Below are positions 2,517 to 9,344 of a DNA stretch of 35,127 bases, in pieces. The notes beneath the pieces were generated by a model. That model was given only the letters and a program-made list of their open reading frames with translations. It had not been told where the DNA came from and made no database searches. Origin of the DNA: an uncultured Clostridia bacterium. GTDB lineage: Bacteria; Bacillota; Clostridia; Oscillospirales; Acutalibacteraceae. Each line of letters opens with the position of its first letter. The stretch's first letter is position 1. The DNA lies in the NCBI GenBank assembly GCA_945988915.1, contig CAMFTS010000003.1:1-35127 (forward strand), given 5' to 3'. Both the position numbers and the translations under genes were made by a program.

Positions 2517-3829
2517 GCAAATATTCAAACAGAATAATCAGTACAGTGCTTATTATTTCCCTTACTTTAGGGATTTGGTATCAAACGGATGCTTTTGCCA
2601 AAAGAGCTGATTTTGCGCAAAAGGTAAACTCGGAAACACAAACCGAAATTGTCTATGGCGAATATGATGAGATAGACAGAGAGTTTGCTTCAAATAAAGA
2701 AAATCTCGTCGGACTTATAGAATCTGCCGGTCTTGCCGATGACGAGAATTTCACTTTCAGAGTCAAGTCTTTGTTCGTTGAGCTTTACGGCTTCTTAAAG
2801 GATATCTTTGTTCAGGGCGGCAAGGTTACGGATATGGATTCCGCGGAGCAAAGATTTACAAGCATATTCAACGGACTTTTTGAGTTGGATACAAAGCTGA
2901 ATGAAATCAATCCTGAGGCTATGGGAGAGCTTACAAACAAGGGATTTGTAACCTCTGCGATTATGATAGTCTGGGATTTGGTAACCGCTTTTGATAATAA
3001 CCGCGTCAATTCGCAGACTATGGAGTCCGGAGTTACAAGGCTTGAAGATATTTCATACATAGACGACGGCACAAATGAGCATATGCTTGATGTGTATTAT
3101 CCTGAAGGCACAAGCGAAAAGCTTCCCGTGATTATTGATATTCACGGCGGAGGACTGATGATGGGTGATAAGGATTCAAACAGAGTTTATTGCTCGGTAC
3201 TTGCCAAAAAAGGATATACGGTAGTCGCTGTCAATTACAGACTTTGTCCCGATGTGCTTTATCCGTCACAGGTGCAGGATATTATGGCGGCTTTCAGATG
3301 GGTACACGATAATGCCGACAAATACTATATTGACCTCGACAAAGTGTATGTTACAGGCGACTCGGCAGGCGGAAATCTCGCGTATTATGTGCCTCTTGTA
3401 AATACAAGTAAAGAGCTGCAGGAGCTTTATTCGGTTGAGCCGTCAGGACTTTCAATAGACGCGCTGGGATTGGTTTCCGGTATGTTCGATATGAAAAACG
3501 GCTTTAACGGACCGCTGATTTCTTCATATCTGGGATTTGACTATAAGAATTCTCCGTATTATAATTATTTACAACCGGAGGAAGCTTTGCCGTTGGGTGA
3601 ATTACCTCCATGCTATGTGGTTACTTGCACAAGAGATTTTCTTCATGCATCAGGCGTGGCGTTTGATGAAGTATTGACAGAAAAGGGAATAGAACATCAA
3701 TTCCGTGATTGGGGCTTGACGGTCAACAAGTCGTCAGGACATATTACGAGCGTTGCTTATCCCGAGCTTGAAGAAAGCAAGACTACAATAAATGAAATGT
3801 TGGCTTTTTTTGAAAACCATACATATTAA
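2513..3829 (+). CDS. Secreted alpha/beta hydrolase (HSL/BD-FAE-like esterase/lipase) with N-terminal extension
   Basis: Signal-peptide-like N-terminus; oxyanion motif DIHGGGLMMG; nucleophile elbow GDSAGG; C-terminal His region. Confidence 0.85.
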   Translation: MSKYSNRIISTVLIISLTLGIWYQTDAFAKRADFAQKVNSETQTEIVYGEYDEIDREFASNKENLVGLIESAGLADDENFTFRVKSLFVELYGFLKDIFVQGGKVTDMDSAEQRFTSIFNGLFELDTKLNEINPEAMGELTNKGFVTSAIMIVWDLVTAFDNNRVNSQTMESGVTRLEDISYIDDGTNEHMLDVYYPEGTSEKLPVIIDIHGGGLMMGDKDSNRVYCSVLAKKGYTVVAVNYRLCPDVLYPSQVQDIMAAFRWVHDNADKYYIDLDKVYVTGDSAGGNLAYYVPLVNTSKELQELYSVEPSGLSIDALGLVSGMFDMKNGFNGPLISSYLGFDYKNSPYYNYLQPEEALPLGELPPCYVVTCTRDFLHASGVAFDEVLTEKGIEHQFRDWGLTVNKSSGHITSVAYPELEESKTTINEMLAFFENHTY

Positions 3830-3851
3830 TTTTTTGAAAGGGGATACCTAT

Positions 3852-5867
3852 ATGAAAAAGACAAAAATTTTAAGCGCTGTTTTAACAGTTGTTATGCTGC
3901 TTTCGCTTCTTCCCGTGAATGTGTTTGCGGCAAAGAGAAATGATTCTGTAGTAAGCGGTTCTCTTGTCCTTTCCGAATCCCATATGGGCAAAAGAGTTAC
4001 GGGCGCAATACCTCAGGGCTTGCCGGAGATTAAGAATGCCGCAGCTACATACAAGTTCTATGACAATCTTACGGATTTCCAAAAGCGCATCTATAACGAG
4101 TTTCTGGCAACAGAGGGTGTGCTTGGACAGAATATCAGTCTTTTATGCAGTGAAAGTGAATTGGGCGGCCTTGATTTGGAAGTGATATCCACAAATATAT
4201 ATTATGCTTTAGCGTCGTTTTTTGAGGATAATCCCGAATATTATTGGTTGCTTTATGCACCGCTGCAATTCGAGATTAAGGAACAGGGCAGCGACTACAT
4301 ATTAGAATTGAAATTGGATTACGAAAGTATTCCATATTCAAATGAAGCAGAGCTCAGAAGCGAATACAACAGAACATTGCAAGCTGTTGAAGACTTCTCC
4401 GTTTCAGGCTCAACAAGATATGAAAAAGTTAAGAGTATCAATGACGGTCTTTGTGAGCTTGCAACATACGCTGATTTGACCGGTGAAGTTAGTGAAAAAG
4501 TGTTTTACCCGTCAAGCTGTTTGCTTTATCCTTATGAAACTGTTTGCGACGGTTACTCAAAGGCTTTCAAGCTTATTTGTGACAGAGAGAATATTCCCTG
4601 TATTATAGTTTGCGGCTACGGCTATGTATATAATATGTCCGGTGAACTTGAACCCGGAGGTCACGCATGGAACTATGTTCAGATGGAAGACGGAAAGTGG
4701 TACGCAGTTGATGTTACCTGGAATGATTCAGCTTATGATTCCGGTGCTCATGACTTGGCATATGATTACTTCCTTAAGGGAAGAAACAGCATTGACAGCT
4801 CAGGTGACAGATTTGCGGTAACTCACGATCCCGTAGGCGACAGATTTGTTGTTCCCGATGAATTCGGCAGAGAAAATCTTATTTGCATGTCATATCCTGA
4901 ACTCAGCGAGTCGGAATACGATCCGAATACGATTGTAGATCCGATTCCCGATAATCCCGGCACAGATGTAGTTGCCGATGTCAACGGTGACGGTAAGCTT
5001 TCGGTCGTTGACGCAAAATGGATTTTACAGTCGCTTGCCGGACTGAGAAACTTAAATTCTGCTCAAGACTCAGCTGCCGATGTAAACGGAGACGGTAAGC
5101 TTTCGGTTGTTGACGCAAAGTGGATTTTACAGGCACTTGCAGGCTTGAGAGTGCTTGGCGAAGAGGAGTCACATGTTATCAAGAACTACCCAGAATTCCC
5201 AGCTCTGGATTTAGGCGCATACTTTGATGTTCCTTACATTGATAAGGTTTATGATTATGGTCCGGAGTATGGCGATATTGGTAATTTACCACCAGCAGAT
5301 GCACCTTTGGTTGAAGTTGAATACATTTATAGACAAAGCGATATAGAGAGCGTTGGTTTTGTAGATGATTACTCAAACCTTCTAAGGAATAGTGGCTTTG
5401 TATATCTTGGAACAACTGCTTTAGTTGGTTGGTCTTATTATTCAGAATTCTATTCCAATAATTCTGTTGGCGTATCAATAAAATATTATGACAACGGAAA
5501 TTTAGGCGTGCGGTTGTATAAGTCTAATTATATTTACCAATATTCTGATTACGATCTCCCAGACTTTGGCGAAATCTTTGATGTTCAATATTGGCATTTA
5601 AGGTCATATAGTGATGGTTCTGCGACTTACGATTATGAGCTATCACAAGCAAAAGAGGCTGACCCTAATAACGAATATTTTAACATACTTAAAGAAAACG
5701 GTTTTGCTTTAGTTGACCAAAGCTATTTTGAAAATTGCGGAGAGTATTATACAGAATGGGTATTTGAAAATTCTAAAACAGGAGTTCGTTTAACTGTTCA
5801 GACTGATGATACCTATTATACAATAATGTTTGGCTTGATAGCGAACCTTGATCGCAATGACTGGTGA
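3852..5867 (+). CDS. Secreted transglutaminase-like protein with internal type I dockerin repeats and duplicated C-terminal domain
   Basis: RBS AAAGGGGATACCTAT before ATG 3852; signal peptide MKKTKILSAVLTVVMLLSLLPVNVFA; transglutaminase Cys/His/Asp context (YETVCDGYSKAF...GGHAWNYVQMEDGKWYAVDVTWND); two ADVNGDGKLSVVDAKWILQ(S/A)LAGLR dockerin segments. Confidence 0.88.
   Translation: MKKTKILSAVLTVVMLLSLLPVNVFAAKRNDSVVSGSLVLSESHMGKRVTGAIPQGLPEIKNAAATYKFYDNLTDFQKRIYNEFLATEGVLGQNISLLCSESELGGLDLEVISTNIYYALASFFEDNPEYYWLLYAPLQFEIKEQGSDYILELKLDYESIPYSNEAELRSEYNRTLQAVEDFSVSGSTRYEKVKSINDGLCELATYADLTGEVSEKVFYPSSCLLYPYETVCDGYSKAFKLICDRENIPCIIVCGYGYVYNMSGELEPGGHAWNYVQMEDGKWYAVDVTWNDSAYDSGAHDLAYDYFLKGRNSIDSSGDRFAVTHDPVGDRFVVPDEFGRENLICMSYPELSESEYDPNTIVDPIPDNPGTDVVADVNGDGKLSVVDAKWILQSLAGLRNLNSAQDSAADVNGDGKLSVVDAKWILQALAGLRVLGEEESHVIKNYPEFPALDLGAYFDVPYIDKVYDYGPEYGDIGNLPPADAPLVEVEYIYRQSDIESVGFVDDYSNLLRNSGFVYLGTTALVGWSYYSEFYSNNSVGVSIKYYDNGNLGVRLYKSNYIYQYSDYDLPDFGEIFDVQYWHLRSYSDGSATYDYELSQAKEADPNNEYFNILKENGFALVDQSYFENCGEYYTEWVFENSKTGVRLTVQTDDTYYTIMFGLIANLDRNDW
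4974..5150 (+). repeat. Dockerin-encoding tandem duplication (two ~75-bp units, 102-bp period)
   Basis: Encoded units ADVNGDGKLSVVDAKWILQSLAGLR and ADVNGDGKLSVVDAKWILQALAGLR differ at one residue; DNA is also highly similar. Confidence 0.9.
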
Positions 5868-5874
5868 TAAAACA

Positions 5875-5915
5875 CCCCATACGGATTTTTTCCGTATGGG
5901 GCTGTTTTTATTTAT
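5875..5915. terminator. Bidirectional Rho-independent terminator between convergent genes
   Basis: CCCCATACGGA - TTTTT - TCCGTATGGGG (11-bp perfect stem), then GCTGTTTTTATTT; A-rich on the other side. Lies between the stop of the plus-strand gene and the stop of the minus-strand holin. Confidence 0.88.
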
Positions 5916-6153
5916 TCAACTGTTTTACTATTTGATTTCCGTAAACGGCTGCACCCGATACAAGCACGCCCTGAATTACGGAATTTACGCTCAAGCCCAT
6001 AATTCCCAGGCATCCGAGTATTCCGAAAAACAGAAGTATAACCGGAATGTATTTATCGGGAATTTTTTTCGTGTGCTTTATCATCATACCGATAATATTC
6101 AGCGCGGGTATGAGTATCAGCGCATTTTTAAATATATAATTTAAAATATTCAA
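5908..6153 (-). CDS. Phage holin (Hol44/holin superfamily V-like)
   Basis: 81 aa with two hydrophobic segments and ALILIPALNIIGMMIKHTKKIPDKYIPVILLFFGILG motif; adjacent to an endolysin gene. Confidence 0.75.
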   Translation of the reverse strand: MNILNYIFKNALILIPALNIIGMMIKHTKKIPDKYIPVILLFFGILGCLGIMGLSVNSVIQGVLVSGAAVYGNQIVKQLNK

Positions 6154-6162
6154 TCAATCACC

Positions 6163-7053
6163 TCAAGTAATATCTGACTTGTTAACATAACCCGTGACAT
6201 TTTTGTATAACGGCTTTTTACCTGCGCGTTCCGGTTTATTTGTTATCCTGAAGCGAGAATTTATGAGTATGCCGTCATAAATATAATATGCACCGCTTTT
6301 CCTGACTGACAATTTCTTGGTGTCGGCGGAGATATATACAGGGGTATTTTTAAGCGTAATCTTTTGTCCCTTGACAAAGTCCGGCTTGCTTGTCTGCGTC
6401 GGCGGTTTATCGATTGCAGGCTTTGCATCGGAATTATCTTTGAAACCGTTGAATCCCCTCGATTTAATGATTGCGGGATAGTCTTTGTATGCCTCGTTCA
6501 TATCAACGCTGCCTCGGATTCCGTTGACCTTGCCTGTCGCTGAATACTGCCACATACCGTATTTGCCCTTGTAAGTGTTTTCCTTTGACCACTGTGCAAC
6601 CCAACAGTCATATTTATTTTTACACTCGTCATCAATAAAGCGGTCAAACCAGTGCTTGCTGCTGTAAACACCGATATAATAACCGGATTTTTCCATTTCG
6701 TTGCAGAATGTTTTAATTAACTGCGACACAAATTCTTTGCCTTTATCGGATTGACTTTTTTCTTCAATATCAAAAATGACGGGCATTTCAAATTTTTTTC
6801 CACTGAGCCATTTAAGAAAAGTCTGCGCTTCTTTTTTTGCGTCATCGGCTGACTTTGCATAGCTGTAAATATATGCACCGAGCTTGATGCCTGCCTTTTT
6901 TGCGGCAGCGTAGTTTTCTTCAAATTTTTCGTCTTTTTGATTGTCGTATTTTCCGTATCCTGCGCGAAGAATTGCAAATTCAATTCCGTCGGCTCTGACC
7001 TTCTTCCAATCAATTGTTCCGTTGTGCTTAGAAACATCAATGCCTTTCATCAT
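6163..7053 (-). CDS. GH25 lysozyme/endolysin with C-terminal SH3-like region
   Basis: MKGIDVSKHNGTIDWKKVRADGIEFAILRAGYG, AGIKLGAYIYSYAKS, MPVIFDIEE catalytic region, GVYSSKHWF, CWVAQW are GH25 hallmarks. Confidence 0.95.
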   Translation of the reverse strand: MMKGIDVSKHNGTIDWKKVRADGIEFAILRAGYGKYDNQKDEKFEENYAAAKKAGIKLGAYIYSYAKSADDAKKEAQTFLKWLSGKKFEMPVIFDIEEKSQSDKGKEFVSQLIKTFCNEMEKSGYYIGVYSSKHWFDRFIDDECKNKYDCWVAQWSKENTYKGKYGMWQYSATGKVNGIRGSVDMNEAYKDYPAIIKSRGFNGFKDNSDAKPAIDKPPTQTSKPDFVKGQKITLKNTPVYISADTKKLSVRKSGAYYIYDGILINSRFRITNKPERAGKKPLYKNVTGYVNKSDIT

Positions 7054-7274
7054 ATTACTTCATTCCTTTCAATATTTTCGATTCTCGTTTCCTGACTTTT
7101 GATTTTCTCCTCTATAACAGGTATTCGTTCTGCGAAATTATTATGCTTGTCAACTTTCTTTTCAAGCTGCTGAAGTCTGTAATTTGTAAGCTTTGCGCTG
7201 GCTAAAATTCCGCCTATTGTACCGAACATTGTGCCGAAAAATGAAACAACAGATACAATGATTTCAGTATTCAT
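7050..7274 (-). CDS. XhlA-like phage membrane/coiled-coil protein (lysis accessory)
   Basis: 74 aa: N-terminal hydrophobic segment followed by NYRLQQLEKKVDKHNNFAERIPVIEEKIKSQETRIENIERN; 4-bp overlap with lysozyme start. Confidence 0.7.
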   Translation of the reverse strand: MNTEIIVSVVSFFGTMFGTIGGILASAKLTNYRLQQLEKKVDKHNNFAERIPVIEEKIKSQETRIENIERNEVI

Positions 7275-8819
7275 TTAATCACCGCCCCATTTGTTTGTTG
7301 CACTGACAATATATTTTGATGTTTCAAGTAATGGCACAGAACTCTGTACCGTTAAATAAAATCTGTTTTTGATTGCTGTCGGAAGAACAGCAAAAGTTTT
7401 TAATATACCGCTTTTTGAAAGCTCGGTGTTTTTATTGGCTTTGGTTTTTGAAAAACTGTATTCTGTTGTCAATATGCCGGTAACTTCATCAAATTTCTGC
7501 GAAACAAAAGCAAATATATCGGTACTGTTAAGCAAATCACCGTCAATCGTAAATTGTATAACAATGCCCGATGCATAACCGATACTGATTTTATATGCTT
7601 CGGTTTGCAGCTGCGACAAATGCAATTCAATATATATGTTTCGCTCACCCAGTCTGTCAATCGTTTTTGAAGTAATATTTGCAGTAATTGTTTCATTCAA
7701 TACTTCTTTATATTTGTATTTGTCTAAAGTGTCATAAATTACTTTATTTTGTAAGGGATTTTCGCTTGTTCCGTTCAGTTCGCTGTCAACAGTTACCGTA
7801 TAATTTAGCTTTTCAACAACTTCATTACTTAACTTGTTTTCTGTGATTACACCGTTTGATATTTTTTCATTTGTTATTGCATATGTCTGAAGCTTATCGG
7901 TTGAAATTGCACCGGGGAAAATATGGTATGCTTCAACAGCCTGAGGTTTAATTTTGCTGTTGGTTACAGCACTGTTTGCTATTTTTTCCGTTGTGACCGA
8001 TACATCCTGAAGATGTGATGTCTTTATGATGTTGTTTATATTGTTGAGTTTTTTGTTTTCAACATCCGTTACTCTGGTGCTGAGACTGTTAATTTCAGAT
8101 GCTACCAAGCAATTCATTGCGGCATTTTCCGAATATTCGGAAAGAAAATCGTCAACAACGGTGTTATTCGCATTTTCCTGAATTGAGTTAAGCTTGTTTT
8201 TGAGTTCATCGGTAAAATCGTTTGTTGTGAGAGTTTTTCCGTTTTGCTTGTCAACCTTGTTGTTTAATTCATTGGTGACAGCCTTGTTTTCTATTGGGTT
8301 GGTACTGTTTGAATTCAATGCCGAATCTACGGTTGTAGGTTCGCCTTTATCACCTTTGTCACCCTTATCGCCTTTGTCGCCCTTATCGCCCTTGAAGTCA
8401 CCGTTTTTTATTGCTTCAAGCATTGCATTTATTGAAAAATCGTAAGAATTTGCAAGGTCTTTGCTGTCGCCTTCTACCGAACTGAATGTAAGTTTAATTG
8501 TCGTTGCTTTGTAGAGATATGTTGTGGCATAAGTTACAGGGTCAACCTTTGCAACATTGAAACAGCATAAGACAGACATCTGACTTGTAATTGCGGCAGG
8601 AAGCGGAAAGATAAGGTTGCCTGAACTGTCAGGGGTAAGATAATCTGTTCTGACAATACCTGACGGAGTCGCAAAATCTAAATAGAATTTATAACTGCCG
8701 TTTAAAAATTCAGTAGCAATTTTAAAATAGAGCTTTTTAGCGTTATTCTCAAACATCAGGCCGCCGTCCATTTCGTAATCGGCATGGGTTGATGTTATAT
8801 AAATAGTCGAAGTAGCCAA
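7275..8819 (-). CDS. Phage tail fibre/baseplate (BppU-like) protein with collagen-like GDK repeats
   Basis: N-terminal BppU-like region; FKGDKGDKGDKGDKGDKGEP collagen-like stretch; repeated VDSALNSNSTNPIENKAV / VDSELNGTSENPLQNKVI motif typical of tail fibres; repeated T-x-KI/KL shaft-like segment. Confidence 0.82.
   Translation of the reverse strand: MATSTIYITSTHADYEMDGGLMFENNAKKLYFKIATEFLNGSYKFYLDFATPSGIVRTDYLTPDSSGNLIFPLPAAITSQMSVLCCFNVAKVDPVTYATTYLYKATTIKLTFSSVEGDSKDLANSYDFSINAMLEAIKNGDFKGDKGDKGDKGDKGDKGEPTTVDSALNSNSTNPIENKAVTNELNNKVDKQNGKTLTTNDFTDELKNKLNSIQENANNTVVDDFLSEYSENAAMNCLVASEINSLSTRVTDVENKKLNNINNIIKTSHLQDVSVTTEKIANSAVTNSKIKPQAVEAYHIFPGAISTDKLQTYAITNEKISNGVITENKLSNEVVEKLNYTVTVDSELNGTSENPLQNKVIYDTLDKYKYKEVLNETITANITSKTIDRLGERNIYIELHLSQLQTEAYKISIGYASGIVIQFTIDGDLLNSTDIFAFVSQKFDEVTGILTTEYSFSKTKANKNTELSKSGILKTFAVLPTAIKNRFYLTVQSSVPLLETSKYIVSATNKWGGD
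8341..8399 (-). repeat. 9-nt-period coding repeat encoding (GDK)n
   Basis: Minus strand reads ggcgataagggcgacaaaggcgataagggtgacaaaggtgataaaggcga. Confidence 0.85.
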
Positions 8820-8821
8820 AA

Positions 8822-9217
8822 TTAGTTCCTCCTTGTAGTTGATTTTAATAATTCTTCAAGATTTGCGGGAGGATTTATAAGTGTAAAGCCGCAGCAGTAA
8901 ACATATTTTAAATTCTCATAGAGCTTTTTTGAGGCTTTTTCCAACACTCTGTAAACGGATTGACGGCTTACAGAATATTTCCGGGCAATATCACCGACTC
9001 TCATAAGAAGAAAGTATTTATCGTTGATATATTTCTTTTCTGTTTCATCAAGCTCATTTTCAATAGCTAACTTCATCACTCGCTCAAAGTTTTGCTGACG
9101 CATACTGACAATGTATTTCGGTAATTCCTTTACATCATCTGCTGTCATCATTTCGAATTTTTCACTTAAAAACAGATATTCGTCACGGCTTAACTGTGTA
9201 GGATTATTGTTCTTCAT
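8822..9217 (-). CDS. Sigma-70 region 4-like / ArpU-type HTH regulator of phage origin
   Basis: Minus-strand RBS AGGAGGATAACG precedes ATG at 9217 (listed ORF starts earlier at 9241). HTH: YFLLMRVGDIARKYSVSRQSVYRVLEKASKKLYENL. Confidence 0.7.
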   Translation of the reverse strand: MKNNNPTQLSRDEYLFLSEKFEMMTADDVKELPKYIVSMRQQNFERVMKLAIENELDETEKKYINDKYFLLMRVGDIARKYSVSRQSVYRVLEKASKKLYENLKYVYCCGFTLINPPANLEELLKSTTRRN

Positions 9218-9250
9218 CGTTATCCTCCTGAAAAATGGCATAAATTAAAA

Positions 9251-9285
9251 CAACACCCAAGAAGGAATATCCCTCTGAGGTGTTG
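9251..9285 (-). promoter_or_regulatory. Terminator-like leader hairpin (candidate attenuator) upstream of the phage-type cassette
   Basis: CAACACC (9251-9257) / GGTGTTG (9279-9285) with inner partial pairing AGAAGGA-ATA-TCCCTCT. Minus-strand 3' side is T-rich (GTTGTTTTAATTTA); plus-strand 3' side is ATTTTTTATCTTT. Confidence 0.55.
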
Positions 9286-9315: not shown

Positions 9316-9344
9316 ATTTTAGACGAAAGTTTGTTACTTGTCAA
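9316..9344 (-). promoter_or_regulatory. Sigma-A-type promoter for the phage-type cassette
   Basis: Minus strand: TTGACA (9344-9339), 17-bp spacer AGTAACAAACTTTCGTC, TAAAAT (9321-9316). Confidence 0.65.

Follow-up and report, generated by a model that had tools for sequence, protein, structure and literature searches.

The 35,127-nt window analysed here belongs to a metagenome-assembled genome (MAG) of 1.2 Mb and 69% completeness from the genus Candidatus Fimenecus, and it carries a phage-type cassette encoding a regulator (REG), a tail fibre, an XhlA-like protein, a GH25 lysozyme and a holin (Table 1). Direct reading of the sequence showed that the five open reading frames (ORFs) are all intact and co-directional and lie at the coordinates claimed in an earlier note on this DNA. 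Since the junctions, in gene order from the regulator, measure +2, 0, -4 and +9 nt, the note's description of tightly packed minus-strand genes was accurate, and the operon promoter and terminal hairpin it had proposed were both read in the sequence. Its labels for the GH25, holin and XhlA-like proteins were supported by Pfam and PHROG matches, the last through PHROG 1863, the Pfam XhlA match being weak (0.005, below the cut-off). The N-terminus of the GH25 protein is the catalytic domain, with no signal peptide. No phage structural gene or integrase was found in the window, as the note had also stated.

Table 1. Features of the cassette and its control region, with positions in the window.
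Feature	Position	Strand	Description
REG regulator, 131 aa	8822-9217	minus	all-helical, sigma-region-4-like helix-turn-helix; ribosome-binding site AGGAGG 9229-9224
FIB fibre, 514 aa, TTG start	7275-8819	minus	BppU-like N-domain, GDK collagen-like spacer, hypervariable C-terminus
XhlA-like small membrane-associated protein, 74 aa	7050-7274	minus	PHROG 1863 1e-15
GH25 lysozyme, endolysin type	6163-7053	minus	PF01183 1.3e-35, PHROG 291 1e-54
Holin, Hol44 / holin superfamily V, 81 aa	5908-6153	minus	PF16079 7e-21, PHROG 1129 7e-26
Terminator hairpin, operon end	5868-5901	minus	read directly; common to the convergent gene ending at 5867
Sigma-A type promoter	9316-9344	minus	-35 TTGACA 9344-9339, 17-nt spacer, -10 TAAAAT 9321-9316
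Degenerate LexA/SOS-box-like site TAACAAACTTTC	9325-9336	minus	in the promoter spacer; relative G222 has a perfect GAACAAATGTTC there
Leader intrinsic-terminator hairpin and U-tract	9241-9285	minus	hairpin 9285-9251, about -20 kcal/mol, between promoter and REG

The fibre matched the tail fibre family PHROG 892 (2e-15). The earlier note had called it a collagen-like fibre of BppU type, a label which obtained no support from Pfam and was borne out by structure: an AlphaFold model of the N-terminus (mean pLDDT 79) matched the baseplate upper proteins of phages NF5 (9m8o, 1.8e-6) and TP901-1 (4v96, 5.5e-6), with further matches to BppU-N of TP901-1 (3uh8, 2.7e-4) and to 80alpha (6v8i, 5e-5). The N-domain fold is therefore common to the cassette fibre and to the lactococcal and staphylococcal BppU proteins of TP901-1 and 80alpha; in contrast to the latter, the Fimenecus fibre has no adjoining baseplate gene and possesses a collagen spacer and swapped C-termini. 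By reading across the congeners, the N-domain and spacer were seen to be kept and the C-terminus to change wholly, in one case to an SGNH-hydrolase-like domain. No signal peptide was seen in the fibre. In the cassettes of two other loci (L042, L058), the fibre joins a BppU-like domain to an M14-like peptidase, and a divergent S24/LexA-like repressor gene lies upstream.

In structural superposition, the C-terminal half of REG fits sigma region 4 of 8jzt to within 0.7 A across 59 residues, at a weak E of 0.06, and the top structure matches are all to this region, though their E-values are weak. Sigma region 2 was not found in the 131 residues, which hold only the region-4-like fold; REG is therefore an activator-like protein and no complete sigma factor. 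Hence the "sigma-like regulator" of the earlier note stands for region 4 and fails for a full sigma factor, and the regulator-holin pairing of TcdR/TcdE or UviA/UviB type that it had cited is left unsupported. What the cassette does share with these pairs and with type 10 secretion is the coupling of a regulator to a holin in a non-phage setting; it differs from them in the missing region 2 and in the conserved capsid/terminase operon, described below, that accompanies it. In other genera, a small coiled-coil gene, C5, directly follows REG in 16/28 loci. An S24-type repressor gene is divergent from REG in two genomes (G063, G177), and none was seen in Fimenecus.

The earlier note had proposed a search for the same cassette, free of other phage genes, in related genomes, and this search was successful. 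REG is present as a single copy in 39 of 40 congeneric genomes (28/28 of the high-quality ones) and is followed on the same strand by GH25 in 39/39, by the XhlA-like gene in 39/39 and by the holin in 37/39, the gene order being REG-[C5]-[fibre]-[XhlA]-GH25-[C4]-holin. Four chromosomal sites recur: (i) nusA-rimP, (ii) mcsB-clpC/exopolysaccharide (EPS), (iii) leuS-esterase-transglutaminase and (iv) thrS. A decaying prophage that has kept its lysis end by chance would account for the phage-type gene order and homology. A complete prophage at the site and dN/dS near 1 among orthologues had been named beforehand as refuting a domesticated cassette; instead, no prophage at the site and no phage structural gene beside the cassette were found in the 39 congeneric neighbourhoods, and pairwise dN/dS was mostly 0.03-0.3, with the exception of one low-divergence holin pair. 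Because the cassette is conserved in 39/40 genomes, it is not there by chance, and its single copy, intact ORFs, purifying selection, retention of the same sites within clades, and dedicated promoter and leader make such a remnant scarcely credible, in agreement with the note's argument against simple decay. In related genera (L156, L162, L164, L171, L176, L177, L178), the cassette lysin, a GH25 or a CHAP/NlpC-like enzyme, ends in C-terminal dockerin repeats, which tie the phage-type endolysin to the cohesin-dockerin world of the host.

A portal search of the congeners returned, in many genomes, one low-scoring match of ~400 aa on another contig. It belongs to a head operon of eight genes, TerS-TerL-portal-XkdF-like-capsid-connector-connector-terminator-like, which in about 35 genomes stands alone, flanked by housekeeping genes (L233-L248, L282-L301). 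The PHROG matches are strong for the portal (1e-118), capsid (3e-78) and TerL (6e-47), and the TerL motifs are intact. The operon occurs in 38/40 congeners, and wherever the contig is long enough all of its genes are present and point the same way; the capsid profile was found once in nearly all of these 38, and dN/dS indicated purifying selection at both the cassette and the head operon. The window's own MAG holds a partial copy on a 2.9-kb contig (G000:C137, L256), the capsid of which is closest to those of G233 and G234, the same relatives as for the cassette. In G221, the two operons share one contig, within about 10 kb of each other. Hence the alternative in the earlier note, by which the cassette is the distal end of a system otherwise encoded at another place, was essentially correct, the other part being this unlinked operon. 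As for its "domesticated release device", a functional and domesticated cassette is upheld by the dN/dS values and the prophage-free site, and self-sufficiency is not supported. The last head gene product, the terminator-like protein TT, diverges far faster than the others, with about 50% identity where the capsid has 95% (L236/L237); it is a possible attachment point co-varying with the fibre.

Beyond the genus, the capsid gene was detected in 113/200 genomes of the family and in 71/396 genomes of the order, across six families. Among GenBank phages, it occurs only in five unannotated, unverified faecal scaffolds, and the two that were opened are pieces of bacterial chromosome with the operon embedded; one further phage scaffold carries the lysis cassette. 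The "Bacteriophage sp." scaffolds MT835647 (L279), MT835508 (L280) and MT835769 (L281) are such chromosome pieces with a lysis or head operon, MT835508 having ribosomal protein and rpoA genes. Phage collections therefore need to be used with caution, as they hold these operons under phage names alongside bacterial housekeeping genes.

The two loci appear to have been inherited together. Lysis and head protein trees of 30 genomes were congruent (Mantel r 0.80, compared with 0.35 for the best of 2000 shuffles), the head tree reproduces 13 of the 20 well-supported lysis splits, and in both trees the genomes at each of the four chromosomal sites form a clade. Among the 200 family genomes, in which REG was counted by a strict single-sequence search, the capsid was present in 29/31 REG-positive and 84/169 REG-negative genomes (p = 2e-6); the two REG-positive genomes without it are 56% and 80% complete. 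The XhlA-like protein, used as a control, showed no association with the capsid in the same genomes (p = 0.76). It was rejected as a cassette marker since it finds mostly ordinary prophages, and a broad REG profile was rejected for the family counts since it caught generic sigma4 proteins, matching 187/200 genomes.

A promoter of the form TTGACA/17-18 nt/TATAAT-like was recovered at the corresponding position in 38/39 congeners with one search pattern and in 39/39 with another. The exact motif GAACN4GTTC, known as the Bacillus/clostridial LexA operator (PMC4234289), occurs in 32/39 congeneric REG promoters against 0.15 expected, and in 0/32 regions upstream of the head operon; boxes of this type, some with one base changed, were also found at REG in 14 of the 28 other-genus loci checked. 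An intrinsic terminator of variable sequence was present in 39/39 congeneric leaders, compared with 6/117 dinucleotide-shuffled leaders, and no Rfam family matched the leader; its hairpin is a candidate attenuator. The region upstream of the head operon holds a conserved element of its own, a motif inflated by the relatedness of the sequences, which is a candidate target of REG.

Based on these data, the cassette is probably "operon II", providing lysis and receptor binding, in a particle system of two loci that resembles a gene transfer agent (GTA) and is vertically inherited in Oscillospirales. Several features expected of a GTA were observed: (i) head and packaging genes are flanked by host genes, with no integrase or replication genes, (ii) vertical inheritance is long and accompanied by purifying selection, and (iii) dedicated, co-opted lysis genes are present, under selection and co-inherited, their role in release being presumed. 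The closest published design is FpGTA of Faecalibacterium (Borodovich et al., Nat Commun 2026, PMC12946183), which consists of a head operon (TerS/TerL/portal/scaffold/capsid) and an unlinked fibre/holin/endolysin operon, the latter found in 5/12 strains, and which forms tailless particles of ~40 nm that package random host DNA of a fixed length, ~9 kb; a text search of that paper turned up no regulator in either operon. Both systems belong to gut Clostridia and have the head operon unlinked from the fibre/lysis operon. In contrast to FpGTA, the second operon of Fimenecus is core to its genus (39/40), begins with REG and is preceded by an SOS box and a leader terminator; furthermore, baseplate genes, a criterion for FpGTA, are absent from both Fimenecus operons.

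The baseplate proved to separate two forms of the system. In many other genera, the head operon is longer and also encodes LysM, hub, spike-like, gp25-like, Baseplate_J, Gp48 and fibre proteins, although these extended operons showed no tube, sheath or tape measure, whereas in Fimenecus and the other REG-bearing genera it ends after the connectors. A linked Baseplate_J was found in 1/19 REG-positive genomes (E <= 1e-5) compared with 57/94 other capsid-bearing genomes of the family (p = 6e-6), and from this near-exclusion we infer that the BppU fibre module takes the place of the baseplate. Five loci (L335, L336, L337, L339, L341) encode small REG-like proteins of about 100-115 aa with C5 directly before them and no recognised lysis genes adjoining; C5 and these proteins may be the two paired regulators in the form with a baseplate.

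The same observations bear on two other explanations. According to the first, the two loci build a tailocin or PBSX-like particle that kills relatives and delivers no DNA. PBSX of Bacillus subtilis is SOS-linked, with a sigma-like Xpf, the order xtmA-xtmB-portal-xkdF-capsid and an xhlA/holin/lysin end, and thus likewise joins SOS control and a TerS/TerL/portal/XkdF/capsid order to xhlA-holin-lysin; in contrast to the two tail-less Fimenecus loci, it forms a single continuous cluster and has a contractile tail. Delivery of DNA to recipient cells is likewise not yet shown for the FpGTA particles (PMC12946183). The tailocin-like system suggested in the earlier note was nevertheless not borne out: Baseplate_J is absent in 38 of the 40 congeners (2/40 have it) and a tape-measure domain occurs in only 5/40, few matches that would fit ordinary prophages, and no tube or sheath gene appears in the head-operon listings, while TerL, portal and capsid are conserved. 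Since a tailocin would need no conserved terminase and capsid, these genes argue for a DNA-packaging, GTA-like particle, and we consider a killing particle unlikely. The second explanation, which we judge equally improbable, is a stand-alone holin/endolysin secretion device, type 10-like, that exports an adhesin, be it the fibre or another cargo, with no particle and with the head operon as an unrelated relic. Export of proteins by holin-endolysin cassettes is known from other bacteria (PMC9527704; see also PMC10847048); the fibre, which could be cargo, and GH25 both have no signal peptide, and 10/39 congeners retain the lysis genes with no fibre. Set against this are the co-inheritance and co-occurrence of the cassette with a conserved, selected capsid/terminase operon, the baseplate-attachment fold of the fibre N-domain, and the near-exclusion just described.

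For the GTA-like system, we propose the following sequence of events. Stress or DNA damage would relieve LexA at the cassette promoter, and read-through of the leader terminator would produce the operon; the boxes and hairpin were observed, and their action is proposed. REG would then switch on the unlinked head operon, itself devoid of a LexA box and preceded by its conserved element. As suggested by the intact, conserved genes and by FpGTA, TerS, TerL, portal and capsid would pack chromosomal DNA into small heads. The conserved N-domain of the fibre would attach it to the particle, substituting for a baseplate, judging from the conservation of that domain and the near-exclusion with baseplate genes, and the variable C-terminus may bind a glycan on the cell surface. 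By analogy with the established biology of these families, the holin and XhlA-like protein would let the signal-less GH25 reach the wall, lysing a few cells and freeing the particles.

A number of points weigh against this interpretation. Nearly all of the genomes are MAGs, and because the co-occurrence tests ignore phylogenetic relatedness, they are supportive only. The fibre is encoded in 29/39 congeneric cassettes and absent from 10/39, and is therefore not always needed in Fimenecus or is encoded elsewhere. The seven of 39 congeners with no exact SOS box are the window's own clade, in which the position is degenerate, which leaves SOS control uncertain for this copy. The case for REG as the activator comes only from co-occurrence and a motif prone to reflect shared ancestry, and the particle, its DNA packaging and its transfer are predicted for Fimenecus from gene content. 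Lastly, the system is a probable member of the FpGTA family by likeness of operon design, not by comparison of protein sequences.

More distant parallels exist among the alphaproteobacterial GTAs, in which, too, the structural cluster is vertically inherited and accessory loci are unlinked to it. RcGTA has a siphovirus-like tail. Its holin/endolysin, fibre and GafA regulator genes lie apart from the structural cluster (PMC8601537), and antitermination control in CcGTA and BaGTA is indicated by titles cited in PMC13236601. These agents differ from the Fimenecus system in host phylum, and the regulator of the latter is sigma4-like and under LexA-type boxes.

FpGTA was reported in one genus; the same design is now indicated as core to Candidatus Fimenecus, and the capsid is present as a single copy in over half of the family genomes sampled, homologues being found in five further families of the order. 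What is new beyond FpGTA is the lineage-wide spread, a dedicated REG under an SOS box and leader terminator, and a baseplate-less BppU-fibre form. These findings suggest that a gene-transfer system linked to DNA damage is widespread in gut Clostridia; REG is a candidate for its master regulator, and SOS plus leader read-through for its trigger. They also provide a rule of exclusion between fibre and baseplate, and gene markers for finding such systems in other gut bacteria. Possibly, and we put this forward tentatively, Oscillospirales possess an ancient, lineage-wide GTA in two forms, one with a baseplate encoded on the head operon and the other with a REG-led, SOS- and attenuator-gated lysis operon in which the baseplate has given way to a BppU fibre with exchangeable tips, giving rise to a tailless DNA-transfer particle that would attach by fibres alone.

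The surroundings of the cassette were also inspected. Convergent with it, at 3792-5867 of the window, lies a gene for a transglutaminase-like protein with dockerin-type repeats, and a related neighbour was seen at L090 and L091. A large exopolysaccharide-type gene cluster adjoins the cassette at 9592-31566; an EPS cluster lies beside it in 11 congeners too, often with the priming sugar transferase of the EPS cluster directly downstream.

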